Source: Gordius sp. MW1 (taxonomy: Eukaryota; Nematomorpha; Gordioida; Gordea; Gordiidae). Taken from it: a DNA stretch of 64,000 nucleotides. A program made the translations under genes and the position numbers. The stretch spans positions 22,059,245 to 22,123,244 of the forward strand of contig OZ038528.1 in assembly GCA_964036665.1 (NCBI GenBank). The letters are read 5' to 3'. Shown piece by piece: positions 6,415-59,340 of this stretch (position 1 is the first letter of the stretch; each line of letters begins with the position of its first letter). The notes below the pieces were generated by a model that saw nothing but the letters and a program-made list of their open reading frames with translations, was not told the origin of the DNA and made no database searches.

Positions 6415-9400
6415 CTGTTTCAAATAATGGGGCATATTTTAGAAGCGTAACTAAAAAATAAGAGGCTAGCGGTTAGAGGTAACAAAAAAATATTTTACAA
6501 TATAATCCTACATCCATTGATAGTTGAAGCCTTTAAAACAATTTATTAATTTTTTGCTTATTCGGGTCGAGTTGTGGTTGAAGTCAAAGAATAAATTTGG
6601 CAGAAATTTAAGCTTTAGAATATTGTGTGTTGGGCTGGGTTTAAAAAACGCAAACAACGTTTTTATAAATGCTGTACATACCATCGGTAGGACTTGTGAT
6701 GGTGTTAAAGGTAGAATCGAAGACGGAATTGCCGCCGGTGCTGGGGAGCGTGATGAGAGTGGGAGTTTTGCCGTTGGGGCTGGCGGTAGTCGCAGGGAGT
6801 GTGCTTGCGACAGATGCGTTATACTTGAAGAGGGTGGAGGATGCGTTGAGCTTGTGGCTGGGTCTACTTTCTTTGTTACTCCGTTTAAAAAACCGTTCCC
6901 CGTTGTTACTAGATTTATGGGCCTCACTTTTATCGGACCTATGATTGGCAATTAAAATTTTATACCGAATCGGATCATTGGGGCAGTAAAGCGCCAAGCG
7001 AAAGTACTATGGGACACAACTTAAATGCATTGAAGAATTAAATAACCACTCATTTTGCTTTAAAATTAATTGCATAATAAGCGCCCTCATCTGAAACGTT
7101 CAATTACCAACCCTACCGTTGCTTTAAATATTAAATAAGCCACAAAGAATAAAAATTAGAACAACCCATTATTGATCGAGTTTGTTGCTTAATATGGTAC
7201 TTGTGAGAATCGGATTGTTCGTAGGCGACGGGGGGAGAGGTGTGGTGTTGGTGGGGAGGTTGATCGGGTGTTAAACTGCTGTTACTGTTGCTATTAATGG
7301 CCGCATTCGTGGAGCAGGCTACGGTTTCGTGCGTGATACTCGCTATGGGAAACTCCACCAAAATTTCGGGTACCTTAAATAAGGGATTTCAATCGTTGTA
7401 TATTATTTATGGCAACAAAAATGTCAAAACAGTCAATTTCTTATAATGCTATGCATTACGCCTATGGGAAATTCGAAATTTCGAATCTTTTGTGTAAATT
7501 TCAAACCTTAGCTTGCTGAGATTCGAATCGAATCTTAACAAAAATATTCGAAAATCATATAACTTTCAATTTATTAAAATACAACTGATTTTATTTTACC
7601 GCAGTTTAGTTATATTTCCATCTATCTTTTTTAACTATAATCATAATCACCGAATCCGAATCTTCAGTTTATTATTGGACGCATATCGAATCGAATATTT
7701 TTTCAAAAAAATTTTGAAGTTAAATCGAATACTAAAAATATTCGATTCGAAATCCACAGGCGGCACTATGCATTATTTTCGGTATTCTAATCCATTCAAA
7801 AACGTTAAAACGAAAATTTTGGGGAAATTGACAAATGACCATGATGGAATTTGATAAATTTTAAGTTGAAAAAAGAATAGTTTTTGCGACTTTAGTCGAG
7901 GTTTTTAGCATTATCTTACCGTAGATGGTATTGTTGCTGATATGGCGGAGCTCGTACCATCATTAGAGTTCTTAATAGACGGAGACGTAGTGACACCGTT
8001 GGCGCTAGACAGCTCCACGTTAAGAACGTTTTTGCTCGAGACCACACTACATTCAGCTGCTTTGGATGCATCGCCGTCCGCCGATTGCGAGATGATGGGT
8101 TGAGAAGGAGTGGGTTGGGAAACGAAATTGAATAAGCTTGGGGTTGCGGATGGAGGGGAACTTTTAACACCGTGACTGCTCGCGGGCTTGTGGGCCTCCT
8201 CACCGCCTAGTAGAGATAAAAAGATTAGCGTCGATATTAAGCGTATGCCTAAAGCAGAGTCTAGTCCTAAAAGTCCTTTTATAATTATTAAGATTGTTGG
8301 TATCTATTAGTGTTGGAAAAACGGCTGGGTTTTGTTTGGTCGACCATTGATTTTCGTGTCGACTAAACATAAATAGACCCCTCTAGGGTTAGTCGTAATT
8401 TGAAGAACGGACCGTCGCCTTTTGGTCTTAATTAAACCAAAGATCGGCCAAACAAAACCCAAACGTTTTTACAACATTAGTATCTATATATTATTTAATA
8501 TTAGCCTCAAGCCGGTTGACGTTTGAAAAAATGCCAAAATCGCTGTTTTGGCAACTTTGACAGCGAATATTTCAAAAACTTGACCTATAGGGGGAAAAAA
8601 TGAAAATATATTAGGGTTCACGGTAAAAAACTCTACAATAACTGCAAACAGCTCGCCGGTCAATTTTACAACTTCATTATTTGCTGAATGGGCTAGGTAA
8701 TAAACAAGTTGTCAATCTTGAATTTAGAGTGGCTGACAATTAATTACCTTTAGTAGTCGGATGTGAAATTATGGGAGTTGCATCGCCGGGCCCGATTCCT
8801 GACACGATATGAGACGTCGCCGGTGTAGAAACCACTTCGGGCTGCACAGAAGTGCTCTGCTGCGTTGTTTTTATAGGGTGGCTGAGCGTGGTTGAAACGG
8901 TAGATGCCGTGGTTTGATGTATGAAAGCGGAAAGGCCCCACGAATTGGATAGGAGTTGCGCCGAATTTAAGCCGCCGGACGAGGCCGCCTATTAATATGG
9001 GATTATAAAGATACAGTAAGTTTAAACTTTATAAATACCAATATTCTTGAACAATGGATTGAACGTTTCTAATAACATGTGACCATATATAAGAAGGCCT
9101 AACTGAGATTATCCAGCCTAAATCTTTAGAATTATTCACTTTTTGTTGTAACTTAAATATAGACTAATGTTTTGTGAAACATACAGACTAGGTGCGAATT
9201 ATGTACGAATAATTTATAATTGAGCACATTATCTTACATTCGTGTGAGGGGGGCCTTGATGAGCGGCACTATTCGTAAACTTCAACGTAGCCGGTAGATT
9301 GTGAGCGATAGCGGCGTTTGATGAAATTTCTAGTATTTATATATAAGCAACATATTTTATGAAAGCCGCGTTAAAAAAAGGAAATATAATAAATCTAAAC

Positions 9401-12400: not shown

Positions 12401-15400
12401 AGTTTTAAAATTACTTATGCCGGAAGAAAGAGCAGTAAATAGGGCAGTATCCATGCCCTCGGGGCGAGGTATAACGATCGAATCAGTAAGAGTATCCGAC
12501 AAATCTTCTGTATCGTTAAAACAAAATTCAATTTAATATGTAACACAATCAGAGCCATTTGAGCGTTATTTGAAGTTTAAAGTTATAAACAATACAAACT
12601 TTCAGCTTCATAGCCTTGTTAATTGGCTTGGCCCTAAAAAGCTTACATTATTTATCAGTATGGTTTTCGCCCACGGCCCTCGATTGATAAGGGCGTACAG
12701 CAAAATTTTATTTGAGTCGAGTCTTTGTTAAGCAAAAAGGGAGTAACTAAGAAAACTTCCTACATATGGGCACCTAAAACTCATGACGCTACGATTTAGC
12801 CCCCCCCCACCCCCTTTGATACACGTGGAGATAGAAATACTTTATTTTAAATTATGTTTTCAATAAAAACAGACGCTAATGTAGGGGTTTGATTAGACGC
12901 CTTTAACATGCTAATGGTTCAAATGGGTAAACCATATTCATCCAGAAATCAATTGAACCAGCACAAAAATAAATCTCGCGCTCACTTCGTGTTTTTTTAT
13001 CACGCGTCGACTGGGTGTGTTGTAGGGGAGCATTAACCGATCGGACCGTGTGCTGATGCAACAAGTCCAAAGAGGAGGCAAATTCAGAGCCCAGGGCCCC
13101 CTTGAAGTTAGAGTTTCCATCTTTGGCCGTTCGAACCCTTTTCTTATTGACGGTCGTTTCGGGGCGACTGACCGAGGCAGAACTTCGAGATTTTCCAGAG
13201 GGTAGAGAGGAAGCTGAGGACGACCGAGACCTTTGAAAGTGTGATAAAATTTAAAGCACTGTTCATTCAGATTATATGAAAACAAGATATGGTGACAAAA
13301 TAGTGGGAATTTTTACAGTACATGCTAAAGCAAATTTTAAAAGCGGCAACCACAAATTTTAAAGCGGGATTCTGGAACTGAGTTTTAACTGATAAAAATG
13401 AGCGTGGATCTAGGTAGTTCTTAATTACAGACTTTAGACATAGAGCCTAAAAATGTTCAAAAATAAAATTCATGTCTTAAACAATCTTTTGGCGAAGTTT
13501 TAAAATGGAAACCAATTTTTTGGCAGTAATTTGCGTATCGTGGATAGCGATGTAGTGTTGTAAAAACGGCCGGATTTGTTTGGTCAACCTTTGGTTTTAG
13601 TCGACTAAAGATATGGGAGTAGGAAAAACAGATCAAAAAATATTGGTTTGTTTATGTTTATGCGACTAAAACCAAAGATCAACCAAACAAAACCCAGCCG
13701 TTTTTACGAGACTACTGTGGTGACGTCATGGTCTATGTTGCAATATTTTCTGTCAATCTCAAGTTACGGCACAGAGCTATAATTTATAATTTGTACGAAT
13801 AGTGTATCTCAAGATAAAGACTAGCCCATTAAGTCGTATATAATAACAATAAGGGGGTTGGCCTTATGGTCGCAAAATGAACCCGGGCCTGAGGTCGGGT
13901 ACTAATTGGGGACCAAGCACTAACCTAGAGGACGATCTAGAGGCGTTGGGGGATGAAAGGGTAGAACTAGAGCTCGAACCGGAGTGAGTTGAGGAGGAGG
14001 AGGATGATGAAGAGGTGTAAAGTTGAATTTTCCCAGAGGCTCCGGCAACGCCCGCCTTAGGCTTACCCACTACACCCAGCCGTGGAAGAGGCGCGGGCGT
14101 GGGTGTGTACAAGGAATCTTTCAACTAGAAAAATTAATAAAATGGTTAAATAACGCTGATTTCGTTAAATTGCTTTTAAAACGGGATATGCCATATGGGA
14201 TATTTATTGGTATTAACTTAATTTTTATAATCGAGTAATTATTTCATCTCGTGGCGATTTAGATTTAAGTGTTTGGGGCGACATGATCACAAAGTACATT
14301 TTGAAACGAAGTTAGGCAGTTAGAAAAAGATGATCATTTATTTTTCAACAATTGCGATGTGTAAGTAAAATGTTTTTGAGGATTCCACCCTAGCTAAATC
14401 CCATAAGATAAGTTACTGTTTTTGTTTCCAATATCGCCGTCTAAACAAGTGAAAGGGGACTTGATTAATCACAGAATTATAATTATAAATCAAATAGAGT
14501 TTTCAAGGTATATTTTCACTTTACTATAAATTAAGCCCTAAATCGAGCGAGTATAAAAGCTATTATATAGAAAAACTATTCTCAACCATATAATATATTA
14601 GTCTCCAAATACCACTTGTTAAGACACATTACCTTGTCTAAGGTACTCGGTCCGAAGGTTCGATTTTGCTTGGAGTAATTACGCATCGCCAATTGTACCA
14701 CGTGGATCATGCTCCGTCTCACCACCCTAACTTCTCCCTCCTCCATTTCTAAAGGAAGGGAATAAATAAAACGTAAAATGGTGATTAAAAAGTTTTCAAA
14801 TAACTAAGTTGTAATAGTGGTGTCGTGTTAGATTTTAGTCTTTATGGCATAAAAATTAGAGTTATAATTATTTGATTTGCGGTTATCACTCTAGCGAATT
14901 GTGTCCTTTCTCCATAAATACTTATCATGTTGATTGAGAAAAAACGTTTTTTTAATCAATAATAAGGACCGTTTACCCTTAATAACATTGCAACACATAA
15001 TTAAGGTAATGAATGAAGCTGGCTGGTTACCTATGGTGTAAACGCTGTTGTCCCATATCTTCTCGATAGTTCCCTTCCTAATTTTCATGTCTTGTTCCAC
15101 CTTGACAACCGAACCCACCTAAAACAAAAAGTATTAATTATATAAATAATACTTTAGAACAAAGCACATGTTACAACAGCTAATAAAATAAATTTTAAGG
15201 GGTTTTAACATTTTGAATAATCGTTACGGCAACGTAAAGAGTTCAAGTCGCTAATTTTTACGAAGCAATATTTATGTAAAAGCTTTAAAATAGTCGATAA
15301 AGGGGCTATAGAATCAGGCGTTTTTCCATATTCTCAATTAACTAATATTGTTATTATTATATTCGATTCCACGCTAAGTCAATGTAGCAGGTTTCGATAA

Positions 15401-18400
15401 GCATCTGAAAGAAAAATAAATTGCTTACCTCTAAGCAACCCTGGAGCACGGCCGTGTGATTTACGATGACGGATTTATTAACGGGTTCCGGCAGTCTGAC
15501 CCTAACTTTGAGGCGAGGCTCTACCTTGGTGATAATGGCTTGGCACGAGGTGCCACCCTTGCCCTTGACCGAAACCCGGGTTTGTTGGGGTAGTACGGTG
15601 GGTAAACTTTTCGGAGATTTTTTGCTCAAACTATTATTGCCCAAGCCGGTAAAATTAACCTCTTCGTCCATCTCCATATCCTGGGAACCTTGGTCCGCGT
15701 CGTGGTTGGTTAGTAGTGGCGTGGATAAGCGTCGGGAGGGTCCGTTGTTTTGACTCTTGCTAACGACGCCTTTGGCTGTTAGGGCTGTGGGGGTAACGCT
15801 AGAGTATGGTAAAATAAACTTTGAAATGGTAGGATTATGTTATGACAAATCTACTGTTTTTAAATGGCCTATTTTAATGGAAAAAGTATTGAGATTGAAA
15901 TCTATATCAATATAAAAGAGAAATTGCAGTTTTTTTAAAGTCGAATATACAGCACTATGCCTAGCATATTTAAGCTTTCGAAAACACATTTAGCGTTGTA
16001 AATGCGGCTGGGTTTGTTTGGTCGAACTTTGGTTTTAGAAGGTTCGTGGCCCGTTTATCTTAGTCGACCCTTTGTCTTCGCTTAACCAAAGGTAGACCAA
16101 ACAAAACCCAGCCGTTTTTAGAACATTAGCGAAGAAGTAAGTTGCATGCAAAGTATAAAAATAAAAGAACGATCTTTTTCAGAAACTAAGATTGATCACC
16201 CTTTCCTCCCCCACTAGAGATAATAAAAAACCCTTTAATTGAATGTAATTTCGGAGAGGTCATATTTACAATATTTAGCCTATAACTGTAAAAGTTAAGT
16301 CTCCGCCCCCGTTCTCAACCGTAAATTAAAAAGAGGCCACGACTTACCCCGAGATGGACGTTGGGTGTTTCTTGAGTTTGGGGGTCAGGTCGGGACTGGC
16401 GGTATCATTCCTGAAAGGTCCTTCAATCTTTCGCTCGGCGTAGGGCGATGAGAAGAGAGAAATGCTACTACTGCTCCCACTACCGCTATTCCTATCGCCT
16501 ATGCTCGCGGCCCGAATTTTCTTAGCGGCTACAGGGCTGTGTGCCCGCTTTTTGGCTACGGGCCTGACCAAGTCTTCCTCCTCCCCGCTAAAGCTAGATG
16601 GCCGTGGGTGGCTTTGCTAAAGCAACGGAGAAATTGAAAAAGTGAAGAAAAAACCTTTATGGGCATAAATAATGCGCATGACTTTGAAAAAGTGTCCAAA
16701 AAATAGTAATTATAAAAGCTAGTGTCGTGAAAACGGCAAGGTTATGTTTGGTGGTTTTAGTCAACACAACATAAACAAAGCAAAGTTGACCGTTAGCCTT
16801 AATAAAGCCAAAGGTGGTCGACCAAACAAAATCCAGCCCTTTTTACAATAATAATAATGATAAAAGGAATGGAGTTTATATCGAGCTGCACACGCCAAAT
16901 ACCGTGAACAACTTAGTAAGATCCATACTTTTCCTAACCAAGCGCGCTAGACGATGATGGAGCGCTGCAATTTCTATCTAGGACTTGGGAATTTACCAAA
17001 AAATTCATCTGGCCAAAACTGCACGTCATTAGGCCAAAGAGACTATACATACTCCACTGTAAGCATTAATGATAATGCAGCTATAAATCGACTAAAGTGA
17101 ATAAAATAGAGTGGGCCAATGGAGGGTTATAAGATAGAACTTTATTCTCAAGTAAAACTCTTATTTTTACACATGAAATTAACATCGTTAGATTCAAAAA
17201 TTTTAGTCGTGGTTTTTAAGCATTTTTCCCGCATTTCTTTCCGAAAACTTACTTATAAGTAGTGAAACATAGACTCATTAAGACTTTGTGCGGCCCGTAG
17301 CTACCCTACATTGCTTTGCTATTACCTTAAGGGGGGCGATCCTTCGTTTTTCCTGGGTACCACCGGCGCCCCCGTTAGTTTTGGCGGGTTGTTTACCCAT
17401 GCTGTTGTTGTGCAAGCCTTTTTTCTTGCCCAAGCCCGGCAACTCTTCTCTGGCCTTAGTGGAGAAGGGGGCAGGGGGTGGAAGCGCCGTCGTGGTTTTG
17501 AAGCGTTTTTTGGCGCCCGCCTCCTGGCGATGATGGTTTGCATTGTGAGGTGGTGCCTTGGTGGCGCCTTCGCTTTTATTAACGTTATTAAAGAGAGTAG
17601 GGGCTACTGCTGTGGTGTTGCTGTTGCCACCGCTTTGGGGCTGTTTGAGGGAGGGCGGGTGATGGTTGAGGTGTTTGAATCGCGAGCCGGCTGATTCGTT
17701 ACTATGAGACGGTTCTGGGGGAGGAAAAAGGAGCGAGGAGAATAAACATGAAAAATTGCCTCTATTTAATGTAACAAATGTGATTTTCGATCAGACATTT
17801 CAGGGGATAATTTAGTGGGGGTTCAAAAACCTGCACGGGTGACCCGAAACCAGGGATGAAAATTTTAAAATGCTTTCGGGTCAAGTCGGTTTCGGTTTAA
17901 AATTTAAGAAAAAATCGGGTCGGGTCGGGGTTGAAAAGCAGTTCTGTAAGTGGGGTCGTAGAAATCTAATATAAAGGCGCTTTTCTGCCGATTTTATGGA
18001 ATTATGAAAAAGCCTTTTCGGTTGCGTGGACGTTTAATTGTCAAAAATTACATAAAAGACTTCCAACTAGTTTCATAAGTTATTAGATTTTCAAAAGTAA
18101 TGGCGCCAGCTAGTTCATATAAAAATGACCAAACTTACAGCAATACTCTAAATAAGCCTTGATACAGAAAATGAATGACCAAAACTCATATATTCGCAAT
18201 AGCTGATTTTAAATATTGACGTTAAATGCACTTTATATTTGAAATTAATGAATAAATTAGGGTTTTGTTAATATATTGAAGATAACAATAACCCCTAACG
18301 GCAATTTAAATGTATGGTTTTGTTACCGGTTTTAAACGATTTTTGACTGGATGTTTCGGAGATGGAGTCCATGGTATCCCCACTGTTAGAGGCGTTATCC

Positions 18401-21400
18401 AGCCCATTCAATAGCTTGTGACGGCTCTTCTTCTGTTCCTAAGCATGCCCCAGTTTACAAATCAATATAATTCAAGGCTTCAAGTATTTGTCGTAATTTT
18501 ATAGCAATAAACGTGAAAGTGATAATGGGAGTAAAGGAATATAAGAAGCGGTGAAAACTTACATTGTTAATGTGCTTGTTGTCGAAATATTCTTGCAGCT
18601 GTTGGGAAAATACAAAAAACAAAGAATGAGAAACCCTTTGGTTAACCGATGAATTTATAATTACGTGTAGGCGGGCAGGCAAAGGGCACTAAGCATAGAC
18701 TAGATAGACTGCTCATCAACTTTAAATAAGTGTAACGTTTTTCCGCCATTTTGAAATGTGCACAAATAAGGGAAGGACATATATATTATAGTAATTTTTG
18801 TTAATTAAGGTGTTTTTTAGAGTAATAAAAAAATAGTTAAACATTCAAAACAGCATTTTAAAACTTATATCATCTACTAATTTAAAATTTTTGCTATGAA
18901 GGTAAATTAACTTTTTCTGTTTTAACGATGGGGTGGGTACAATTCAGAAAGACATGGGAGATAGTTAAATTCACAATGGTGGATTTAATGGTATACATCT
19001 TACCATATGAAACATATGACATGAGCAGTCTATGTAGTCTATGGCGCTACGTAAGCTGTGAAGAAAGCGGTACAGCAAAACCGGATAATTTATTAGCAAC
19101 CAAGCGAATGTAAGCAGAAATGAGAAATTTTTGGGGAAATAAGGTAGTTTACTAGCAAAAGCTATTATTGTTAATATAGTAAAAAAATCATAGTGCTAAA
19201 TTCCATTTATCAGTTAATATGTCCTGTAAAAACAGTAATTTATATACAAATAGCTTAGCATTCAAGTAGCATTGCAGGGTAGTTTATTTTATAATAATTA
19301 CCACGCAACGGTCTATGGTTTGTATGTAGTAGGGGACCGGGTTAGGAGTCCAGGAAAAGGCTCCGGGCTCGCTCAAGAATTTGCTAACTTTCATCATGGC
19401 CGCCGTGTCTAAAAAAGAATTTTTAAATGGGTTATATTTTTGAGTTTTGCGCCGTTTTGGGTAGTAAAACAGATTACGATTTTAGTAAATCTTTACAAAA
19501 CTTTACACTAAATTGAAAAAATGTAGGGATAGTTACCGTCTAGATTGCGGTCCGAGACGCGAAAGGATTCGCTTCTAAATGGATACGTCGATATGATACG
19601 GGTATCTGCAAACAAAGGGTCAAAATTTTAGAGAGTGATAAACAAATAAATTCAATTTATTTATATAAAAACAATCTAACTATAATTATAGCCGTTTGCT
19701 AAAGTCTGAGTTCGGATTTTTCAATTATTCAAACGATATTGGAGTTGATTCATAAAGCTGAAAAACTTTATAGGACGACAAGGAACATATATTATTAAGG
19801 TGAGAAAAATAATGTGATGGTAACGAGGGGAAGGGGGAGGAGCTAAATTACTGTTGTCCAAGTTGGCGAACAGACTCTTCAGCTTGTGGTTGACCTCTCG
19901 AAAGGCGAAATTATTAACGAATATGACGGTAGATTGGTAAATGGCTTCGTGGTGTTGCGCATCCAAGAAATCCCCGTTGATTAACTAATGCAAAAGTAAA
20001 AATTGCGATCGTTTAAGAGAAAATTAAAATTTGAAATAAGAGTTGAAATTTTGAAAAAACCCTGAGCTAGGACCAAACATTAAAAACAGCCTAAGTTTTC
20101 ATCAGATCTGAGCGATTTAATTAAAAGAAAATAGATGTTTAAAAGAAAATTAAAAAACTACATGGGGGGGGGGGGATTGAGTGTTACTTGATAATTGTGG
20201 AATTTTTTGCCGAACCACTTCATGAGCCCCTTGAATTCCTTGTCCATCTCGACGGCGTATTCGGCCCGAGTGCTCTCCTTCTCGATGCCTATAGATTGTC
20301 GACACTGCGTAGAGGCCGCCACTTGTAACACGATGTGTCCTATACCTGTGGTGGTTAGTGAATTAATATGGAAAATTTTGCAAATTCCGCGGGTCAATTT
20401 TAAAATTTGGAGCACCATACTTAAGTGGCGGGGAATGTGGCGTTTGCTATTTTACAGAGTCGTTTAACTTAAATCTCGAAGTAAGTGAGTGGTATGAACG
20501 TCATTAAAGTAAGGTTATCACGTGGACCTAAATTAATGATTTCAAACATTAAGGGGGGCTTAAAGATGTTACAATACGTACGTAGGCAAAAATAAATGAA
20601 AAACGAAGGGGGTGCTTAATATAGCTAGCCCTTAGTTTAAACTATAATAATTTTTATAAATTTTATCGAATTCGAGTGTATTTGGGGGCAACACTCACCA
20701 CTTCCCAAGTCAATGAAGGTATCGTCGGGTTGCATGTTCAGTTTTTGGATGATTTTGCGGACTTGCTCGTAATTCGTTTCCCCGTACGTCTGCAAAAATA
20801 CGCGCACGTAAACGTGTTATAATTAACATTGCATCAAATATCGTTATAATTCTAAGAAATATTAAATAAATTATAAAATTAAAAAGCCTTGTTAGTGTTA
20901 GTATAAAAGTGATGTTCATTTCAAAATGGCCGAGCCCTTTTACGCCACCTTACGGCACTTCCAAGCTAAACAAGCCAAAGGTCACATCATTAAGCTCCAT
21001 AACTATAATTTTATTTAATTAATTCAAGGACGCGAAACGCATACATCTTGGCGAAAAAGACACAACCACACCATCATAACAAAAAAGCATGCATTTCTGA
21101 TCTAATGTTTATTAAAATTTAAGATAAAACATAAAAGGTTTAAGGTGAAATTTGTCAAATTTTGGCATATAAAAGTAAAAAAATTTCGGGGTAATTTGAT
21201 GTACCTCGGGTAGGGCGTTGGCTTTGCACTTGTTGAGGAGGACGGGCTGAGACACGACCCTGGTGTAAACGAATTCCAAAATCCATTTGAGCAGGTCGTG
21301 GGAGGCGATGGGGTTGCCACATACCATCGACGTACCCTTTGACTAGGGGATAAATGTTTTTTTGGCGTATAATTATTTTCTCACTTTTTTATTTGGTCGT

Positions 21401-24400: not shown

Positions 24401-27400
24401 ATAATTACTAAAATCATCGTACTCTCTATATCATTTTTCGCTCTTTTTACAAAAACTGACTGAGCGCCATGCTACGTCATTATTGCAAACGTCACTACTA
24501 AATTCCATACACTTTGTCTCCAAGTTATATGATATGCTAAAATTACAATCGGCCTGACAATGGGATTGAGGGAGCGAGTGGGAGAGGAAAGGCGTTTCAA
24601 TATTTAGGAAAATGTAATTTACAAGAAAATAGCATGTGTGTGTGTGTATAGTAAAGTTAAAAGGAGGCATTAGCCGTGGTTTACCATGGAGAGGAACGTG
24701 TCTATGACGTGGTTGAACCGGTCGCATAGGGCTTGCATGTCGGCGTAACTACGTGCAAAAAAGAACGAGTATAAATTAATAATACAAAGCGTATATATAC
24801 AAAACAGACCGAAGTGTTGTAAAAAGAGTTGGTTTTTGTTGGTTCAACTATCCTGACAATTTATAAAGGCGAAGAAATTACCTACCGCTCTACGGCGGTC
24901 CATCGATTACTTTTTTATTCTTTATCAAACTACATACTAACCTCCTATCTGATCTGATCATTTAAAATAAATAATGCAGGACATAGGCGTAGCCAGGATT
25001 AGATTTAAAGGGGGGGGGGGTGATAATGATTTAGGGGAGGCAAAATGATTTTTGAAATTTTAGCCATGATTATATTATAATTTAAAGGATTTTTGGATTT
25101 AAAGGGGGGGGGGGGGGCAGCCGAACCTCCATGTCACCCCCTAGATACGCCCATGGTGTAGGGGTTGTTTACATAACGCACAACTTCTCTAAATATCATA
25201 CCATTTTTCGGTATAAAAAAATCCTACGAGCGCGAAGGAAACCCGCGTTTTCGTAATAAAAAATAAAGTGGGATTGGGTGGAAAATCGATAAACGATCGA
25301 TTGATATAATCTAAGTTAGTTAGGGGGAAGGAGGAAAGGAGAATAATGTGCAAATTTGCGGCTTAGTGCCTAGAGGCGGCGTAGAGAGCTACTAATGAAT
25401 GGGTGAGTGACGCGAAGCATAAAATGATAGAATTATAAAAACAAAAGCGAAGGGGGACCGATTAACCTAAATCCTATGAATATGGTTGGAGGGGGCAGGG
25501 TCGCGGAGGGCACAAATTAACGAATTATTGATTATACTTAAATGAACACACCCAGAAGCCTCATCCACCCGAGGGGAGTTTTGTAGGTTTCACCCCGTTT
25601 TAAGCTAAATCAGAAAGAGCAATCTCATTGCCAATTCTCCGATAATAGTTACTCCACAACGGGCTTTGTTCTACGCTCTTTAAGCAACTGGGGGGGAAGG
25701 GGGGCAAAGGGGGGAAGGAGGGGGGCAAAATCGATATTTGTGCCACGAATAGTTAATTTCAAGTAATTTGGGGAGTTGGGAATAGAAAGGAGTTGGTTCT
25801 CCATATCATTCTCAAACATCAACGGACGCAAGGCTTTTTGTCGGATCGTCGTCAGAGGGCCGAGTCAGAACGCCCGTATCGATTATCTATAATGCTACTG
25901 CGCCACTCCGCACACCACAACGTTTATAAGGGGAGAGGCGTGGGGGAATGGGAGTGGTTTGCGTCAAACAAAGTGCTGTTTTATGGGAGGAAAGAGGAGG
26001 GTAAGTCATTTCATTTTTCCGTTCCATTAGCCACGTAACCCCGCGTTCGTGATGACGCGCGAAGCGAAAAAAAGCGAAGTGAATTTTTGGAACTTATTTT
26101 TATTAAACTTTTCATTATTTTTCTTAATATCTTATATTCATCGTGAATTTTATCATATATCACGAAAATAACAATTGTAAATATGAGGTGTTCATAGTGA
26201 AACCGCAGACCATTATTTTCGCCCGCGGCAAAAAGCGACGAAAATAAGATACAAATCATTTTGTACTTTTCGCGCAATGGATAAAAATGTGAATTTGGTA
26301 TGTATGCATTTTTACATAATTGTTTATGTTTATAGACTAATAACGATCTTATCAATGAATACCATTGATATATGATAAATTTCACGGTGAATATAAAGAT
26401 ATTAATAAAAAAAATGAAAAGTTTGATAAATTAGCCCAAAAATTCACTTCGCTTTTTTTCGCATTCGCGCGTCATCACGAACGCGATAAGTGTTGTAAAA
26501 ACGGGTGGGTTTTGTTTGGTCGATTAAACATAAACAAAACCCGGCCACTACGTAAGACTCTTCTGATCCGTAGAGCTCTTAAAAGCGTAACGGATTTTAG
26601 ATTCTGGTATTTATTACAAATTAGAGGTCGTCGTTGTTCGATTGAATCAAATGTGACATCGGCAAAAGTTGGTTGATTTAAACATAGTAATGGCTTCGAT
26701 TACATTCTTGCTAAAACATAAAACGCTGTAGCCGGATGGGCAAAAATTACATTGGGTAGGCCATTAGTTTTGCAAAATTCGTTAAAAAACTTCATTTTTC
26801 GTCAAAGATGAGCTCAGCCCACATATTGTTTAGCGATTAAAAAGGTGGGAATGGTAAAAAAGATTTCGGTAGGCGGCAAAGGCTTGGTTCTTTAAGACTG
26901 AAGTGATTTAAAAAACGTTTCATTACGAGAGAATCTAGGTTGATGACGCTGTGGGTGCTGGTTGGGCGTGACAAGCGTTGCGTTGTACTGGGGGAAATAT
27001 GATACATTTCATAATAGTAATAATAGAGTACACCCATCCGTGAACGACGCAATGACTTGCATAATTATGTATTGAATCGTATTAAGCGATCGCATTAGCG
27101 TTGAGGAGAGGCATCTGCTTCGAAAAGCAATATGATTTTCCTATCCCATATGCTCAGCCTTTCTCCAACCTAACAATCTTCAAGACTTGGCATGACTAGC
27201 AGCAATAACTAACACACAAAAGTCTTCAAAAACGGCAACTCTTCTTTATGGTGTCACTCAATTCCTATGTTAATCCTGTTTTTTGCAAGTAATGTAAAAA
27301 TTTCTCATTGTTCGTCTTCTCGCTCTTAATATTCCTTTTTAGATGCCAATATCGATCGACTCATGAAATAGAGGTAAAACGCGAATAAAGAGCGAAGAAG

Positions 27401-30400: not shown

Positions 30401-33400
30401 GTTCTGTTGGGGAAGAGAACACTAGGAAGAGGCGGGGAATCAAAAATGAAAATGACATATTTTTTGATAACTCCGGGTGAACCAGCTTTAATAGTGCCAC
30501 GGAGATTTTATGATCCAACCGCAAAACATGAAATTTTCAAAACACATATTTGTAATGATAAAACGAACCTCGCTTTACATTGGTTAGCGACGGCGTATAA
30601 AAAAGTTACTATTTATGAATAAAAAATGAAGAAATGATAGAACGCATGATAAATTTATGGTTGAAAAAATCTTTTTTTGCGTAATCAAATTAATTAATCA
30701 TACTTGGAGCGGTCAATCTGGCGTATGACCTTAATGTCTATGATGGATTTCAGCACGGGCACTTCCTTGCACACCCACCTAATTTTGAAAAATAAATACA
30801 AATTAGTATAATTTAAATTTTGTAGCTTCTAAGTTTTATGTATTCGATATTTTTGATTTTATAATATTATCTAGAGCCGAAAAAATAAGTTATCGTCTCT
30901 ACTTTACCCATGGCAAACATTGGAGAAAATCCAATTTCTAACTAAAAAGTAAATTCGCTAATAGTGTTAATGAAAGGGAACGGGTCTTATTTTTTGTTAT
31001 TTTGAGCTACAGTCAAAACCGTTTAATTGCAAAGCCTTGGGCCTGAAAAAAATCGCGATTAACCGATATTTCGCGATTAACGATGGAAATAAAAGTATAT
31101 GTACATTATATTAAATATTATATTTTATATAATTATCTGGTTGATTTAAGGACTCAAAAATGTTTGTGAATATCCGATATTGTACTATTAAGGGATTTGT
31201 CAATAAACGATGTTTTTGTTTATATTATCGTTACAAAAAACAAAATGGCGGTTAACTTCGCGATTAAAAGATTTTCGCGATAATCCGAATTGCGATTCAA
31301 AAGTTTCGACTGTATCTCGCAAACTAGGTTCCTCTAAGAGCTACACATTTACCAATCAAATATCCCAAACACCTGGTATTACTCATTGATCAAACCAACG
31401 AAATCGCAAAATAATAAAGGCCTTTTGTCTATATTCTCGCCAAAAAGTTGTTTTTTCAACAATAAAATAACCGAGTTTTTGCATAGCCGAGCGAAAAGCT
31501 GAGGCGTTCTTACTACACCTGCTTTTAATGGATGCTTAAAAGTGCGGGGCGCGAGGCATTCAAAATGGGAAGGTTAAATATCGATGAGAAATGTGAACTT
31601 TTAAAAAGCTCCAATTCAATATTTGCAAGAGTAGGGGGTGCTGCTTTCAAAATGCGAAAATCGATAAAGGGGCGGGACGACAAAGTGGGTTTAAAAATGA
31701 AATTGGACTAAACTAATGGACTGGATGTAGCGTGGGTGCGTGAAAAAAATCGTAACGACGAAATAAAAATTGCAAGCTAGTGTTGTAAAATGGCAGGGTT
31801 TTATTTGGTCGAGCTTTGGTTTTAGTCGAACTAAACATAAACAGACCAAAAAACGTTTGGCCTTAGAAGTGGAGCTCACAATTTGTCCTGATTTTTCGAT
31901 TACTCCAAGAATGAGTGTATTTGTCTGGTCAAATCTTAGTAATGATAGCGATTGTTTCATGGTATCACATCTATATTACAAATATTTCACGTTTGGACCA
32001 AACAAAACCTGGCCATCATTACGGCACTACTGCGCTCTACAGCCAGTGCTGCGGGAATACTAAACTTAACTCAACCCTGCCCGCTTTAAAAATACATACG
32101 TATAAGGAATCTGAGACGCAACGCAGCCTAGGGCATTTGCACAAAGGATGATGGGCTGAGGAGTAAGATGGAGAGAAGTTGTTTTTATATGTGTTTACCA
32201 ATGCACAACAACATGATAGGGAGGTAGTAGGTATATCATAGTACAGTATTGAATATTACTAATATCATGTCATTTGTGTTGTGTTTGGTTATTAAGGTCA
32301 GGGTTAGGCTAGGGGAGGAGGGCTGGGGAGTTAAAACTGAAACTATGTCATCTAACTACACCACAAACGTTGTAAAGCGACTATAATAATACCCCTTTTT
32401 ACGTGTAGGTGGCAAACGGGGTATTTGCTAAAGCTAAGCTGGATAGTGTGTTGTGATAAGCGACGGGGGAGCGGTAAAAAAAGTCCAATAGATAAATTAT
32501 AGTGTAGAGTAGATGGATGATAAATAGACAGCCTAGGGGGGGATTCGGTTTTTTGACGAGTTGTTACGGGTATAGTGAGTGATAAATTAAACTGTGGTGG
32601 AGGTTGGTAGTTTTACGAGACGACGCTTATTATTATCAGATACGTTAGCTAACAAACTTACTTTTTTTATGGGGGGGGGGGGGGGGGGGGGGGGGGTAAT
32701 AAAGGGTCGAGATATCATACCTCCCCTCCCCCCTTGAACAAAAAATGTCATATAGACGATTACTATAGTGAGCGAGTGGATTTGTCAAAAGGCTGCACGT
32801 CAAAATGTGTTTATCTTGATTGCTATGCAATTTTTGATAAATAATATTATCGGAAAAATATGGTTAGTATCTTTATTAATTGCGGCCTGACTTGATATGT
32901 GTAATAGGATTGGCAAATGCACGACTGCAACGTAAGGCGTTTAATGTGTGACCTCACGAGGCTCGGTTACTTTTGTAGGTTTTTTCCCTTGGCTGCAGCC
33001 TGAAGCTATTGCGTAATCGCTTCAAAAATAATGAGGAAAATAAACAATGGGGGGGGGGGGACAGAGCAGAGACACAATTGCTATTATAATGCTGGCGATT
33101 CACATTTGCGAGAGTTGTATTGTAGCGTAAGTGAGCCATGTAGTAGAATTAAGGTTAAAAATTATTATGAACGATGCAAATTTTTTGGAGTGTTTGAGGA
33201 AAATTTAAAAAGGTGAAAATGTCCTCAGTCTTTTATAAAATAATTGTATGACCCGAAAATTACCATGAAAGGGGTAAAACAAAAAATGAGATATATAAAG
33301 TGTGGTTAAGCATGTTTTACACGTGACAGTGGCAAAATATATTTGTAAAACATTCATGCCTCTAAAATATTATTACAAATAGAATTTATGCTTTTGGTTT

Positions 33401-42400: not shown

Positions 42401-43161
42401 TAGTTTTAATAGCGCAGTTTGATTAAGTTTAACTTAAGTGACGTGTAATTAGAGACCACAATCAACCAAGACTAATTTAACATTTTATAAAATTGGTAAA
42501 ATTCAGTACCAAATTGTCTATTTATATTTTTTGTTTTTTTATATTTTATTGTTTCCCAAGCATGTAAATTTTATTAACTAAAAAAAGCCATTGTTTTAAT
42601 GATTTGTCACTAACACAAAGCCCAAATTAATATTATAGTATGTTAAAAAATATAAAAAACCCATATCTATATATGTAAGCTATAGTTAATTTTAAAGAAC
42701 AAAATAAAAAAAGTGTTCCAAAACTATGTTAGAAATAATTTGGAATACTTGAGATAAATTAAAAATTTATAACTAATTATAACCCATAAAATTCATAGCA
42801 ATTAATAAAAATATTAATAGAATACATTGCCAAAATAGGCTTAATAGTTGAAAAGCATGTTTATGGTTCCAATTAAAAGACCCTCACATAGAATTTATAT
42901 TCCAAAATTTTAAGATACAAATTTTTTAATTTCATAATTAAAAAATCAAATTGTATAAACCCAAGCATAGAATGTATGCTACAAATATTTCAGTTAGCTA
43001 TTATAGACTTAGACATCCCAAAATGTTTTATTAATAAATTACCTTATTGTTTCCATTATAGAGTCAGAGGGGAGTTTATTGTTTATACTTTCATCCCAAT
43101 TGAAGGATATGTAGCCTTGGCCACAAGGACTTTTTAATCTTAAGGGTTTTATATCTTCCAT
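4220..43161 (-). CDS. DOT1L: DOT1L histone H3K79 methyltransferase with an ARID4-type Tudor module (complete coding region)
   Basis: Nucleosomal H3 Lys79 methyltransferase. Exons, high to low: 43161-43043, 30778-30704, 24748-24685, 21342-21205, 20789-20699, 20345-20188, 19984-19852, 19605-19537, 19408-19302, 18598-18563, 18438-18327, 17714-17326, 16616-16348, 15798-15429, 15118-15031, 14748-14633, 14124-13925, 13230-12986, 12507-12415, 11658-11459, 11111-10974, 10766-10651, 10551-9680, 9329-9238, 8988-8748, 8206-7920, 7373-7201, 6938-6682, 6414-4220. All borders are GT/AG, phases agree, and the total is 7443 bp (2480 aa), against about 1540 in human. Domain order: DOT1 fold 1-318 with SAM motif DLGSGIG (159-165), E184 and VNNFAF (238-243); Lys-rich linker; Tudor module about 660-765; LHQHTV near 902-907; coiled coil about 960-1070; AF9-motif-like segment near 1611-1619; His/Pro/Ser/Asn-rich tail. 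The catalytic residues I can check are intact. An acceptor-like AG directly before the ATG suggests an upstream non-coding exon. Exons 17-28 have weaker outside support. Confidence 0.92.
6682..9329 (-). CDS. DOT1L: DOT1L exons 24-28: disordered region with an AF9/ENL-binding-like motif
   Basis: Five exons (9329-9238, 8988-8748, 8206-7920, 7373-7201, 6938-6682) encode about residues 1400-1750, mostly Ser/Thr/Pro-rich. Exon 27 opens with VPEILVEFPIASITHE. In human DOT1L the AF9/ENL AHD-binding sites contain LPVSIPLASV; the V-x-[IF]-P-[LI]-A-S-[IV] core is kept here. This suggests the protein still recruits an AF9/ENL YEATS partner (inference). A MITE-1 copy sits in the intron between exons 25 and 26. 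Confidence 0.82.
8310..8477. mobile_element. MITE-1 copy (TA-flanked)
   Basis: Ends GTGTTGGAAAAACGGCTGGG and (inverted) TGTTGTAAAAACG; inner GTTTTGTTTGGTCGACC versus GGCCAAACAAAACCC. Flanked by TA on both sides. Lies in the intron between DOT1L exons 25 and 26. Confidence 0.75.
9680..14124 (-). CDS. DOT1L: DOT1L exons 17-23: linker, coiled coil and Q/N-rich region
   Basis: Exons 14124-13925, 13230-12986, 12507-12415, 11658-11459, 11111-10974, 10766-10651 and 10551-9680. Exon 18 holds SSLDLLHQHTVRS, matching the human DOT1L segment TALDALHAQTVSQT that lies between its catalytic and coiled-coil regions; this anchors the region as DOT1L. Exons 20-21 give about 112 charged residues with heptad character (for example QNNHQKLEDELIIERVK), placed like the human coiled coil that binds AF10/AF17. 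Exon 22 (REKLFALTGKDYYDPAG...) is compact and conserved-looking but unknown to me. Exon 23 is low-complexity. Confidence 0.82.
13555..13712. mobile_element. MITE-1 copy (TA-flanked)
   Basis: Starts GTGTTGTAAAAACGGCCGG, ends CAGCCGTTTTTACGAGAC, TA on both sides; arms GGTCAACCTTTGGTTTTAGTC and its inverse. Lies between DOT1L exons 17 and 18. Confidence 0.8.
14633..15798 (-). CDS. DOT1L: DOT1L exons 14-16: ARID4/RBBP1-type double Tudor module
   Basis: Exons 15798-15429, 15118-15031 and 14748-14633 encode residues about 587-778. From residue 660, TRVSVKG...SCQAIITKV...LKVRVRL, then LQGCLEVGSVV, IEKIWDNSVYTI, EGEVRVVRRS and STLDKL follow, in order and spacing, the N-terminal Tudor region of ARID4A/RBBP1 (pattern VSxK..CxAxI..V..KVxV, LxGxLxVGxxV, IxKxxDxSxYT, GxxRxxRR, xTLDxL). 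The RBBP1 fold is an interdigitated double Tudor reported to bind DNA. Phases match exon 13 (phase 2) and exon 17 (phase 0). ARID4's ARID and chromo-barrel domains are absent downstream. Human DOT1L has no Tudor domain here. Confidence 0.85.
14838..14890. repeat. Dispersed repeat A, copy 2
   Basis: ATGGCATAAAAATTAGAGTT and TTGATTTGCGGTTATCAC match the repeat at 8-52. Lies in the DOT1L intron before exon 16. Confidence 0.5.
15993..16126. mobile_element. MITE-1 copy (TA-flanked)
   Basis: GCGTTGTAAATGCGGCTGGG at the left and CCAGCCGTTTTTAGAACAT at the right, both next to TA. Lies between DOT1L exons 13 and 14. Confidence 0.75.
16348..18598 (-). CDS. DOT1L: DOT1L exons 10-13: end of catalytic domain and basic linker
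   Basis: Exons 18598-18563 (LQEYFDNKHINN), 18438-18327, 17714-17326 and 16616-16348. The first matches the human ILENYFSSLKNP segment after TIDR. The rest is a Ser/Pro/Lys-rich linker with clusters such as LGKKKG, QEKRR, AKKRAH and AAKKIRA, in the place of the human Lys-rich DNA-binding stretch needed for nucleosome binding. MITE-1 copies lie in the introns on both sides of exon 13. Confidence 0.85.
16722..16848. mobile_element. MITE-1 copy (TA-flanked)
   Basis: GTGTCGTGAAAACGGCAAGG at the left and CAGCCCTTTTTACAA at the right, TA on both sides. Lies between DOT1L exons 12 and 13. Confidence 0.7.
18696..18775. repeat. Dispersed repeat C, copy 1
   Basis: AGATAGACTGCTCATCAACT, TTTTTCCGCCATTTTGAA and TGTGCACAAATAAGG recur at 22996-23080 in the same order. 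No clear ends. Confidence 0.55.
19302..21342 (-). CDS. DOT1L: DOT1L exons 4-9: methyltransferase core
   Basis: Exons 21342-21205, 20789-20699, 20345-20188, 19984-19852, 19605-19537 and 19408-19302. Visible motifs are KGTSMVCGNPIASHDLL, TYGETNYEQV, SAM motif I FIDLGSGIGHIVLQVAA, GIEKES (acidic ribose contact, human E186), MDKEFKGLMKWFGKK, GDFLDAQ, VIFVNNFAF (human N241 site), RIISTYPF, FSWTPNPVPYYIQTIDR. All line up with human DOT1L with few gaps, and the numbering is within about two residues of human. Nothing suggests loss of activity. Confidence 0.95.
22398..22553. mobile_element. MITE-2 copy
   Basis: CATGGGCGTAGCCAG at the left and TTGGCTACGCCCATG at the right; inner GGGGCAAAATGAT, TTTTAGCCATAATTTTAATA, then a C8 run. 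Confidence 0.85.
22996..23080. repeat. Dispersed repeat C, copy 2
   Basis: Same blocks as the copy at 18696-18775, about 80 percent alike by eye, in DOT1L intron 3. Confidence 0.55.
23400..23418. repeat. (CT)n microsatellite
   Basis: Nine to ten CT units in DOT1L intron 3. Confidence 0.85.
24685..24748 (-). CDS. DOT1L: DOT1L exon 3
   Basis: A 64-bp exon encoding YADMQALCDRFNHVIDTFLSM, matching human [21 protein letters not shown]. Acceptor AG at 24750-24749, donor GT at 24684-24683, incoming phase 2, outgoing phase 0. Confidence 0.93.
24812..24850. mobile_element. MITE-1 fragment
   Basis: Only a left end (GTGTTGTAAAAAGAGTTGG) remains, just upstream of DOT1L exon 3. Confidence 0.45.
24982..25155. 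mobile_element. MITE-2 copy with G11 and G14 runs
   Basis: CATAGGCGTAGCCAGG to TAGATACGCCCATG. G runs at 25010-25020 and 25104-25117. Confidence 0.8.
26042..26485. mobile_element. Foldback element with arms of about 120 bp
   Basis: The left arm 26042-26165 begins CGCGTTCGTGATGACGCGCG; the right arm about 26366-26485 ends CGCGTCATCACGAACGCG. The inner parts also pair (AAGCGAAGTGAATTTTTGG with CCAAAAATTCACTTCGCTT, and TGATATATGA blocks). The loop is about 200 bp and has no ORF of note. Confidence 0.75.
26490..26549. mobile_element. MITE-1 short copy
   Basis: GTGTTGTAAAAACGGGTGGG to CAAAACCCGGCCACTA; an internally deleted copy directly abutting the foldback element at 26042-26485. Confidence 0.65.
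27682..27846. mobile_element. MITE-2 copy
   Basis: CATGGGCGTAGCCAGG to CCTGGCTACGCCCATG, perfect 16-bp inverted ends. Confidence 0.85.
28121..29480. mobile_element. PIF/Harbinger-like DNA element (non-autonomous)
   Basis: Left end GGGTGCGTCTTAATACGCGC and inverted right end GGCTACGTCTTAATACGCGC, about 22 bp with two mismatches, flanked by TTA at 28118-28120 and 29481-29483. A TTA target site and GGG/GGC ends fit PIF/Harbinger. A second ACGCGTCTTAATACG sits inside near 28190. One 89-aa ORF (28533-28802, +) starts FLDSLLQDFKALSDPNK, which vaguely recalls the BESS motif of Harbinger accessory (MADF/Myb-like) proteins; this is weak. No transposase is present. Confidence 0.65.
29023..29383. repeat. 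Minisatellite of 60-75 bp units
   Basis: About 5.5 units begin CTAAACTTGACAATCCTAAA at 29023, 29099, 29161, about 29221, 29291 and 29353. Longer units carry an extra GTAGACAATAAAATGTA. It lies inside the Harbinger-like element. Confidence 0.85.
30704..30778 (-). CDS. DOT1L: DOT1L exon 2
   Basis: A 75-bp exon reading RWVCKEVPVLKSIIDIKVI and then RQIDRSN, matching human [26 protein letters not shown] in the N-terminal helical part of the DOT1 domain. Acceptor AG at 30780-30779, donor GT at 30703-30702. Confidence 0.92.
31010..31312. mobile_element. pogo/Tigger-like MITE
   Basis: CAGTCAAAACCGTTTAAT at the left and, inverted, CAGTCGAAACTTTTGAAT at the right; TA at 31008-31009 and 31313-31314. 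CAGTC ends with TA targets fit the pogo branch of Tc1/mariner. Inner CGCGATTAA motifs repeat. 303 bp, no ORF. Confidence 0.65.
31780..32027. mobile_element. MITE-1 copy, long
   Basis: GTGTTGTAAAATGGCAGGG at the left, AACAAAACCTGGCCATCATT at the right, TA on both sides. Extra unrelated sequence near 31870-31980 makes it longer than other copies. Confidence 0.65.
32671..32696 (+). repeat. G26 homopolymer
   Basis: Twenty-six consecutive G after CTTTTTTTAT. Other G runs of 12 or more: 11320-11332, 20164-20175, 33049-33060, 33819-33833, 36931-36942, 50452-50470. Confidence 0.85.
33391..33520. mobile_element. MITE-1 copy, left end lost
   Basis: The right half ACCAAACAAAAAACCGAGCC plus GTTTTTACAAC is clear. 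The left end is degraded. Confidence 0.5.
33969..34142. mobile_element. MITE-2 copy
   Basis: ACAGGCGTAGCCGAGG to GCTGGCTACGCCCATG with an inner G-run and TTGCCTCCCTCTAATTACAA at the right. Confidence 0.75.
34588..34785. mobile_element. MITE-1 copy (TA-flanked)
   Basis: GTGTTGTAAAAACGATTGGG at the left and CAGCCGGTTTTCCAACGC at the right, TA on both sides. The middle carries repeated GTCGAC/GACCAA palindromic pieces. Confidence 0.75.
38028..39627 (+). mobile_element. piggyBac element with transposase core deleted
   Basis: Target sites TTAA at 38024-38027 and 39628-39631. Ends CCCTCCGTACGC at the left and, inverted, CCCTTCATTCACC at the right. Subterminal GGGTCAATATGACCC (left) and GGGTCTATATGACCC (right), plus CGTTCGGATTTTTGGGTC-like blocks, are piggyBac-style internal inverted repeats. 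The coding remnant is described separately. It lies in DOT1L intron 1. Confidence 0.75.
38454..38924 (+). pseudogene. Broken piggyBac transposase: N-terminus plus cysteine-rich C-terminus
   Basis: The ATG at 38454 opens an acidic N-terminal piece (MESFKISDIFEDSDWGS, later LESDTDD) that stops at about 38587. From about 38620 a piece reading FLKELALELIKPFLIDRL matches the conserved end of piggyBac transposases. After a C10 run (38772-38781), which shifts the frame, comes RCKLC..., CAIC, YICKTH, CLHC: the C-terminal Cys-rich zinc domain, ending at TAA 38922-38924. The DDD catalytic core, normally hundreds of residues, is missing, so it is non-functional. Confidence 0.75.
39847..39929. mobile_element. 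MITE-1 short copy (TA-flanked)
   Basis: GTGTTGTAAAAACGGATGGG, a compact TTTGGTCGAC / GTCGACCAAA stem, and TA on both sides. It looks like a minimal foldback form of the family. Confidence 0.7.
41035..41130. mobile_element. MITE-2 half copy
   Basis: Right end CTTGGCTACGCTGATG with the inner AATGGCTAAAATTAAAAAAT / CATTTTGCC block. The left end is lost. Confidence 0.5.
41751..41932. mobile_element. MITE-1 copy, left end worn
   Basis: Inner arm GGGTTTTGTTTGGTCGACC at the left and GTCGACCAAACAACACCCAG plus CCGTTTTTTAAAACAC at the right. Confidence 0.65.
43043..43161 (-). CDS. DOT1L: DOT1L exon 1 (start codon)
   Basis: ATG at 43161-43159. MEDIKPLRLKSP aligns with human MGEKLELRLKSP, and METIR with human IETIRW, so this is the true N-terminus. 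Sequence between these anchors diverges (no HHDAAHE equivalent). The donor GT is at 43042-43041 with phase 2, fitting exon 2. TTTCAG stands directly before the ATG, so translation probably starts at the first base of this exon after an unseen 5' UTR exon. Confidence 0.9.
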
Positions 43162-58500: not shown

Positions 58501-59340
58501 GATAAAGGTTCCGTCAGCCCCGGTACTTCTCCCATTTTCCGAGATATAACACCCCTCCCCTAGTTTTGAGAACTCAACAGTTCTATGCGAGGAAACAAGG
58601 GAGAAATTATTCGAAGAAAACGAAAAGTTGTCAAAGCGCTTAGCTGGCTATGGGTTAAAGGTCAACGATCGAAAAACGGTATACATGGAAATGAACGGTT
58701 CAAGCAGCCCATCGCTGGATGACCCTCTAAAGTACCCAAAATTAGACAGATTTACATACCTCGGCTCGATGCTACATCAAGAGGGAGGTTGCGCAACGGA
58801 AGTCAATGCCGGCATCCAAAAAGGATGGCTTAAATGGCGAATTATATCCGGTGTAATGTGCGACAAGAAAATGCCAATCTGGTTAAAGAGCAAAGCTTAC
58901 AAATCCATCGTAAGACCGGTGTTACTCTATGGAAGTGAAACATGGGCATTAACCACGGAAGGAAAGCTATTACAAGCCACAGAGATGAGAATGATACGGT
59001 GGAGCTTGGGGTATACTAAGCTCGACCATATGACGAATGACTTTCTCATGACAAAAATGGGTATTCAACCTTTGGCGGACATGATTAACGAAAATCGACT
59101 AAGGTGGTATGGGCATATACTAAGAAGGGACATGGGTGACGTAAATCGAAAAGTACTGGACATGGAGGTACCGGGGAAGAGAGGGAGAGGACGACCCCGT
59201 GTCACGTGGAAAGGGCAAGTCGATAAATTAATGAAAACAAAAGAGATTAGTCAAGATATGGCACCACCCGGTCAAGATGAAAGAAACTCATCAAAAGAAA
59301 CCCCACGTCTGTGGGACCAAATAACTGATAAAGGATGAAA
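55590..59340 (+). mobile_element. RTE-type LINE, decayed and split by a solo LTR
   Basis: APE endonuclease: RITCWNVGTLTGKS, QETRWNG (frame break at about 55915-55930), IGADFNAHVG, SQIDYLL. RT: DCGNYRGIKL, VFIDLEKAYDTVPRDL (motif A), HQESALSPFLFN, motif C as MLYADGIV instead of YADD. After the LTR: GYGLKVNDRKTVYME, LYGSETWAL, NRLRWYGHILRR, GKRGRGRPRVTWKG, typical RTE C-terminal blocks. Several frame breaks lie between 56450 and 57400. It is not functional. Confidence 0.88.
57860..58579. mobile_element. Solo LTR, 720 bp, inside the RTE LINE
   Basis: Begins TGTCATGTC and ends CTCAACA; 5-bp duplication GTTCT at 57855-57859 and 58580-58584. ATATATAC at 58421-58428 and AATAAA at 58460-58465 fit an LTR promoter and poly-A site. 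Removing LTR plus one duplication (725 bp) exactly explains the frame offset between the LINE parts on either side. A degenerate tandem repeat of about 85 bp (GCAAGGATACA..., TTGGCCC) occupies 57960-58085. A 5-bp duplication fits Gypsy or BEL/Pao; which one cannot be told. Confidence 0.85.

Follow-up and report, generated by a model that had tools for sequence, protein, structure and literature searches.

The window analysed here is a 64,000-nucleotide stretch of the genome of the hairworm Gordius sp. MW1 (GCA_964036665.1; positions 22,059,245 to 22,123,244 of contig OZ038528.1, here C2), whose assembly comprises 211.8 Mb in 12 contigs. The minus strand of the window carries a gene for DOT1L, described in PMC10098044 as the only histone H3 lysine 79 (H3K79) methyltransferase known in mammals. 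Between its catalytic domain and the conserved downstream part, the encoded protein contains a module that resembles the N-terminal double Tudor region of ARID4A and ARID4B (RBBP1), the human ARID4 products being subunits of the mSin3A complex according to PMC8038949. The DOT1L model was assembled manually on the basis of splice signals and reading frames, the splice sites being identified by eye, and consisted of 18 GT-AG exons giving an open frame of 926 amino acids. The gene extends past exon 18 in the window. All DOT1L exons and features given below are on the minus strand.

Exon 1 (43043..43161), with the start codon at 43161, was followed by exon 2 (30704..30778), exon 3 (24685..24748) and exons 4-9 (19302..21342), which encode the catalytic domain: exon 4 (21342-21205), exons 5 and 6 with the S-adenosylmethionine motif (20789-20699 and 20345-20188), exon 7 with VNNFAF (19984-19852), exon 8 (19605-19537) and exon 9 with TIDR (19408-19302). 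The catalytic domain ends in exon 10 (18598-18563), the first of exons 10-13 (16348..18598), and exons 11, 12 and 13 (18438-18327, 17714-17326 and 16616-16348) encode a linker with basic stretches. Residues 6-336 of the protein matched human DOT1L structures with an E of about 5e-83, and the only matches to the DOT1-type catalytic domain (PF08123) in the genome were to three exons of this gene. The top database match of the catalytic part was a protein from Gordionus, a second hairworm (78% identical, E=3.4e-122), with insects next at 45-46%.

Alignment to human DOT1L showed that F223, N241, Y312, R278, R282, L322 and F326 (human numbering) were all identical in the window protein (7 of 7), N241 and Y312 being active-site residues. 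R282 is given as the main acidic-patch anchor in PMC10098044, and PMC8944089 reports that stimulation by H2B ubiquitin was lost in R278/R282 and L322/F326 mutants. Since these catalytic and nucleosome-contact residues are unchanged, the enzyme is predicted to dock on the nucleosome in the usual manner.

The module was encoded by exons 14-16, and the coordinates proposed for them in the initial annotation, 14633..15798, proved exact. Exon 14 (15429..15798) begins with approximately 66 residues of linker, including QDMEMDEE (QDMEIEEE in Gordionus), and continues with the first half of the double Tudor, the ARID4-type portion running from about 15602 down to 15429. Exon 15 (15031..15118) encodes the middle of the module, VGSVVKVEQDMKIRKGTIEKIWDNSVYTI, and the introns on either side of it match introns of the genome's ARID4 gene in both position and phase. 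Exon 16 (14633..14748) supplies the last Tudor strands, an extension with the sequence RNYSKQNR (14683-14660) and STLDK. Exon 17 (13925..14124) starts with LKDSLYTPTP, which continues an ARID4-like TLDKL stretch, before passing into a low-complexity linker, and exon 18 (12986..13230) encodes further linker and the conserved DOT1L motif LDLLHQHTV. The three module exons had been described as in phase, and the frame was indeed open through exons 1-18. However, exons 14-16 total 574 nucleotides, which is not a multiple of three, so that skipping all of them would disrupt the frame and the trio is not a removable cassette. Exons 15 and 16 total 204 nucleotides and could by length be skipped in frame, but this would halve the Tudor fold.

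Downstream of exon 18, two stretches that appeared coiled-coil-like by eye (11653-11456 and 11108-10974, borders approximate) aligned with residues 961-1031 and 1032-1076 of Gordionus DOT1L, and two C-terminal pieces (9968-9882 and 6901-6845) lay in order with its residues 1275-1303 (E 3.8e-5) and 1582-1600 (E 5.0e-6). A further match at 6109-6050 was weak (E=4.3) and was not relied on. The proposal that the protein is DOT1L on both sides of the module was upheld by the catalytic match upstream and by LDLLHQHTV and the Gordionus-aligned stretches downstream, the coiled coil being assigned by eye only. The piece at 6845-6901 is a conserved basic C-terminal motif, GERFFKRSNKESRPSHKLN, identical at 18 of 19 positions in Gordionus DOT1L with little alignment around it.

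The ARID4 affinity of the module was evident from two kinds of comparison. Among 177,635 PDB sequences, the translation of exons 14-16 matched the Tudor structures of ARID4A (2mam) at E=4e-7 and ARID4B (7dm4) at E=6.2e-6, the next match having an E of 0.73. A profile was also built from 34 ARID4 Tudors, 33 taken from 120 listed sequences and one from the ARID4 gene in the Gordius genome, with no DOT1L row, which avoids circularity. This ARID4-only profile scored 58.4 bits on residues 653-755 of the 926-residue window protein and 55.1 bits on Gordionus DOT1L. The highest score among 1000 module shuffles was 11.1 bits and that among 99 other listed DOT1L proteins was 2.8 bits, controls by which a chance resemblance to the ARID4 Tudor was ruled out. 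When the profile was run on the 2055 six-frame open stretches of at least 20 residues in the window, those of exon 14 (E 3.6e-5) and exon 15 (E 0.0027) ranked highest, and exon 16 on its own was not among the listed matches.

A Pfam scan of the module gave no Tudor match and only families at chance level; because the true Gordionus ARID4 (P0101) also reached Pfam Tudor families only below threshold, this reflects a gap in Pfam. The Tudor/RBB1NT similarity postulated for the module was found with the PDB sequences and the ARID4 profile and not with the Pfam Tudor and RBB1NT models. A search of the genome for RBB1NT (PF08169) gave no match and, as no control matched either, was uninformative, as was a word-based protein search from the module region, in which none of 180 candidates scored and Gordionus DOT1L was missed too. 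Searched against its own genome with E up to 10, the module retrieved no sequence apart from its own three exons and is therefore not an obvious repeat; ARID4 was not recovered, although an ARID4A query did recover it. Taken at the level of sequence, it is nearly certain that the window DOT1L has an internal ARID4-type interdigitated double Tudor, as the initial annotation had asserted.

The same arrangement was present in Gordionus DOT1L (P0001), an independent database gene model of 2097 residues, in which the module occupies residues 670-796, after the catalytic domain and ahead of LDLLHEHT at 878. When this protein was compared with the window by tblastn, the matches with E <0.05 were collinear from exon 1 as far as Gordionus residue 1600, the Tudor part of exon 14 being unmatched there. 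These data bear on a possible gene-model artefact, in which two DOT1L halves would flank an ARID4-like gene or the exons would be a set of pseudo-exons, which would be in keeping with the assembly of the window protein by hand from splice signals in genomic DNA alone. Such an artefact is extremely improbable, because exon 14 itself spans the junction between the DOT1L linker (QDMEMDEE/QDMEIEEE) and the beginning of the Tudor, the reading frame is kept across all 18 exons, the independent Gordionus model has the same order within one protein, and a canonical ARID4 lies elsewhere, on contig C8.

The Gordionus copy was predicted to form an eight-strand fold (predicted local distance difference test score, pLDDT, 83.7) made up of two interdigitated four-strand Tudor folds. 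Its best PDB matches were ARID4B and ARID4A, with KDM4A close behind. The hybrid Tudor of KDM4A, KDM4B and KDM4C is similar in being an interdigitated double Tudor fold within a histone lysine modifying enzyme. However, the KDM4 proteins are demethylases, their sequence match to the module was weaker than that of ARID4 and the fold match slightly weaker, and no common aromatic cage was seen. By eye, the two hairworm modules had just one Tudor-core aromatic residue in common, the Y of YTI, so no shared cage is visible, with the KDM4A cage positions not mapped residue by residue. Together with a sequence profile far closer to ARID4 than to KDM4, this makes it improbable that the module is a methyl-lysine reader of the KDM4A type, coupling H3K79 methylation to another histone mark.

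Global alignment of the window and Gordionus proteins gave 262 identities over residues 1-330 (79%), 78 of 268 aligned residues in the linker before the module (24% over all positions), 43 of 95 in the Tudor (45%; 43% over all positions) and 17 of 86 in the linker after it (15% over all positions). The Tudor is thus more alike between the two hairworms than its flanking linkers, which suggests constraint. A passive remnant, captured by chance and retained merely as a spacer, would account for the fast evolution of the module (45% aligned identity versus 79% in the catalytic part), but such a remnant is very improbable given that the linkers retained only 24% and 15% identity over all positions where the Tudor retained 43%, and that both copies still score 55-58 bits on the ARID4-only profile. 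The longest identical stretch of the module was RNYSKQNR, just past the Tudor, which was the same at 8 of 8 positions (Gordionus P0001 residues 777-784) and was not found in the ARID4 rows. It was not confidently folded in the Gordionus model (pLDDT <50 from model residue 111). The linker motif STLDKL, said to follow the module, was present in the window species (exons 16/17) and had no counterpart in Gordionus.

The distribution of the module was assessed in 100 listed DOT1L proteins (Gordionus and 99 others), a part of all DOT1L in which Soboliphyme is the only named nematode, priapulids and tardigrades are not represented by name and many rows are nameless. An LDLLH-type motif was seen in 76 of the 100 and in 75 of the 99 others, and 95 of the 99 showed the motif or extended at least 500 residues past the catalytic domain, so that the module would have shown up. 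None of the 99 contained it, whether the ARID4-only profile or a profile including both modules was used, which agrees with the earlier statement that no DOT1L with this architecture was known. An animal-wide ancient module was ruled out by these 99 negatives in a set with a single named nematode and no named priapulid or tardigrade. The distance from the catalytic domain to the LDLLH-type motif was 574 residues in the window and 554 in Gordionus, compared with 100-365 (median 172) in the 75 others. Consequently, hairworm DOT1L resembles animal DOT1L such as the human protein and Drosophila grappa in the catalytic domain, the checked residues and the downstream LDLLH-type motif, and differs in its longer linker with the Tudor module. 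Conversely, none of the 120 listed ARID4-Tudor proteins bore a DOT1 family label. A literature search found no DOT1L with Tudor and ARID4 and no nematomorph DOT1L, most subscription journals being outside that search. A chromatin enzyme with a Tudor is of a known kind, and the combination of DOT1L with an ARID4 Tudor is, to the extent of these searches, undescribed.

A check for a separate ARID4 gene had been proposed, and one was present on contig C8 (36532500-36542400, locus L018), where its Tudor exons were read. The Tudor exon at 36540276-36540386 shared 68% identity with human ARID4A across 37 residues, and an ARID match lay 1.8 kb downstream on the same strand. The five ARID matches in the genome were on C1, C7, C8 and C4, with none in the window on C2. 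Gordionus likewise has a separate ARID4 (P0101). As a side observation, P0101 had no Pfam Tudor-knot or RBB1NT match at E 0.1, so that the hairworm ARID4 may be reduced or diverged; genome-wide, one strong Tudor-knot match was found elsewhere on C8.

The introns in the Tudor exons of this ARID4, read by eye, were CK|VA (phase 0), LL|VGS (phase 0), YTV|E (phase 1) and ESQ|TLDK (phase 0), while those of the DOT1L module were LE|VGS (phase 0), YTI|E (phase 1) and TLDK|L (phase 0). Two are therefore the same in position and phase, one ARID4 intron is absent and one is displaced by four codons. Under a simple model of random placement, two or more coincidences would be expected with a probability of ~3e-4, a rough figure, with the splice sites identified by eye in each gene. 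The two common positions and phases point to a copy of ARID4 exons at the DNA level, introns included, and speak against a retrocopy or convergence as the origin of the module. Because the 5' part of exon 14 is DOT1L linker and the homology border falls inside the exon, the capture was not a clean symmetric-exon insertion, or the 5' intron has been lost. In a 36-row tree the two DOT1L modules grouped together (97/94), both on long branches, and the simplest reading would be a single capture before the two hairworm species split. Overall, the module is like the N-terminal Tudor of ARID4A and ARID4B in sequence, in the predicted fold of the Gordionus copy, in two intron positions and phases and, in the window species, in TLDKL. 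It differs in lying in a DOT1L gene without an ARID domain match, in the extra RNYSKQNR, in the missing and the shifted intron and in a changed DNA-contact loop.

Loss of a DOT1L partner was considered as the reason for the capture and was neither shown nor excluded. All matches in a genome search for BRE1 were weak and failed to reach the cut-off (best E 0.7), and 6 of 14 prokaryote controls likewise matched without reaching it. YEATS and extended-PHD domains were encoded in the genome and are candidates for DOT1L partners, not assigned to AF9 or AF10.

The initial annotation placed the insertion at the position of the Lys-rich patch of human DOT1L, presumably at residues ~390-416. This was not borne out, since the basic stretches lie before the module, at residues ~421-570 in the window protein and ~421-520 in Gordionus. 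It had also been suggested that the module may strengthen nucleosome engagement, the RBBP1 Tudor fold being reported to bind DNA. PMC8038949 describes weak, micromolar binding of duplex DNA by the human ARID4 Tudors, a docking model in which K19-R21, K37, Q52, W88, R102, S104 and S105 make the contacts, and a basic C-terminal tail that strengthens binding. At the mapped positions 19, 21, 37, 39, 102 and 103 the window module has K, K, K, R, R and R, with a net charge of +6, and position 50 is an uncharged I where ARID4B has E. The Gordionus module has E, D, K, K, K and R at the six positions and a net charge of +3. The six basic positions are thus in line with DNA binding by the window copy, and the acidic 19 and 21 of Gordionus are not, so that DNA binding is supported only in part. 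Trp88 of ARID4B was dropped as a lost DNA contact, since of the 36 ARID4 rows just the two human ones possess it. All 36 rows have K-[YF]-[KR] in the L12 loop, with K19 and either K or R at 21 in every one. The window module has K-G-K, in which the charge is kept and the aromatic lost, and neither copy conforms to the ARID4 pattern; the module is accordingly a derived homologue in which DNA binding cannot be assumed. A DNA clamp formed by the window module is nevertheless plausible.

The principal alternative is that the main role of the module is now to bind a protein or peptide, either a histone tail without a methyl-lysine cage or a partner, perhaps through RNYSKQNR. The acidic L12 loop of Gordionus, the long branches of both copies and the complete identity of RNYSKQNR (8/8, against 45% for the Tudor) in an extension that ARID4 rows do not have are all in its favour. 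On the other hand, no partner is known, the extension had a pLDDT <50, and positions 37, 39, 102 and 103 are basic in both species. We regard this alternative as possible, if on the doubtful side. The RNYSKQNR tail itself might strengthen DNA binding or might serve as a partner motif.

The explanation towards which we lean, with modest confidence, is that the 5' exons of ARID4 were copied into the DOT1L linker and that the module provides an extra weak chromatin contact on a tether; a tethered chromatin-contact module is the most likely description of it. In the proposed sequence of events, a hairworm ancestor would have copied these exons with their introns into the linker between the catalytic domain and the LDLLH/coiled-coil part. 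The module, ~330 residues past the catalytic domain on what is probably a flexible linker, would add a weak contact with nucleosomal or linker DNA, to which the basic linker and RNYSKQNR would contribute, and this contact would raise the local concentration of DOT1L on chromatin. The catalytic domain would still dock via the acidic-patch arginine and the ubiquitin-facing helix. With a linker of this length, a tethered contact is likelier than any direct influence on the active site. A more specific version, in which the captured Tudor serves as a second clamp on nucleosome or linker DNA at the end of a long tether and makes H3K79 methylation more processive or lessens its need for the usual recruiting partners and H2B ubiquitin, is tentative and rather unlikely to hold in full.

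Several observations weigh against the preferred explanation, 1) the L12 loop, which enters the DNA groove in ARID4, is E-N-D in Gordionus, so that the module does not conserve DNA binding through this surface, 2) the tie between the modules and hairworm ARID4, although present in the best tree, was unsupported (52/0), and the source of the copy was not resolved by the tree, 3) the fold comparison by itself separates ARID4 from KDM4 poorly, 4) the linker length implies no direct coupling to the active site and 5) the Gordionus protein is a database gene model and the window protein was derived from genomic splice signals alone.

The surroundings of the gene contained repeats. Plus-strand frames at 45793-47669 and 55905-59338 appeared by eye to be reverse-transcriptase-like and endonuclease-like and are probably the remains of a non-long-terminal-repeat retroelement near the 5' end of DOT1L. 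The 16-base word GGTCGACCAAACAAAA occurred 23 times with up to 3 mismatches (~1 expected) between 8330 and 41909, mostly in DOT1L introns. It sometimes formed facing pairs, with 25-nucleotide arms 49 nucleotides apart at 16010-16108, and represents a short palindromic repeat family, to which frames in the ARID4 locus were similar by eye.

The addition of a chromatin-type domain from ARID4 to DOT1L in the hairworm lineage would be an unusual rewiring of a histone writer, and hairworm DOT1L would offer a clean case of exon capture together with introns. It may serve as a natural gain-of-domain experiment on the limits of H3K79 methylation and, if the module does act as a clamp, would be a natural test of whether chromatin residence limits DOT1L output.

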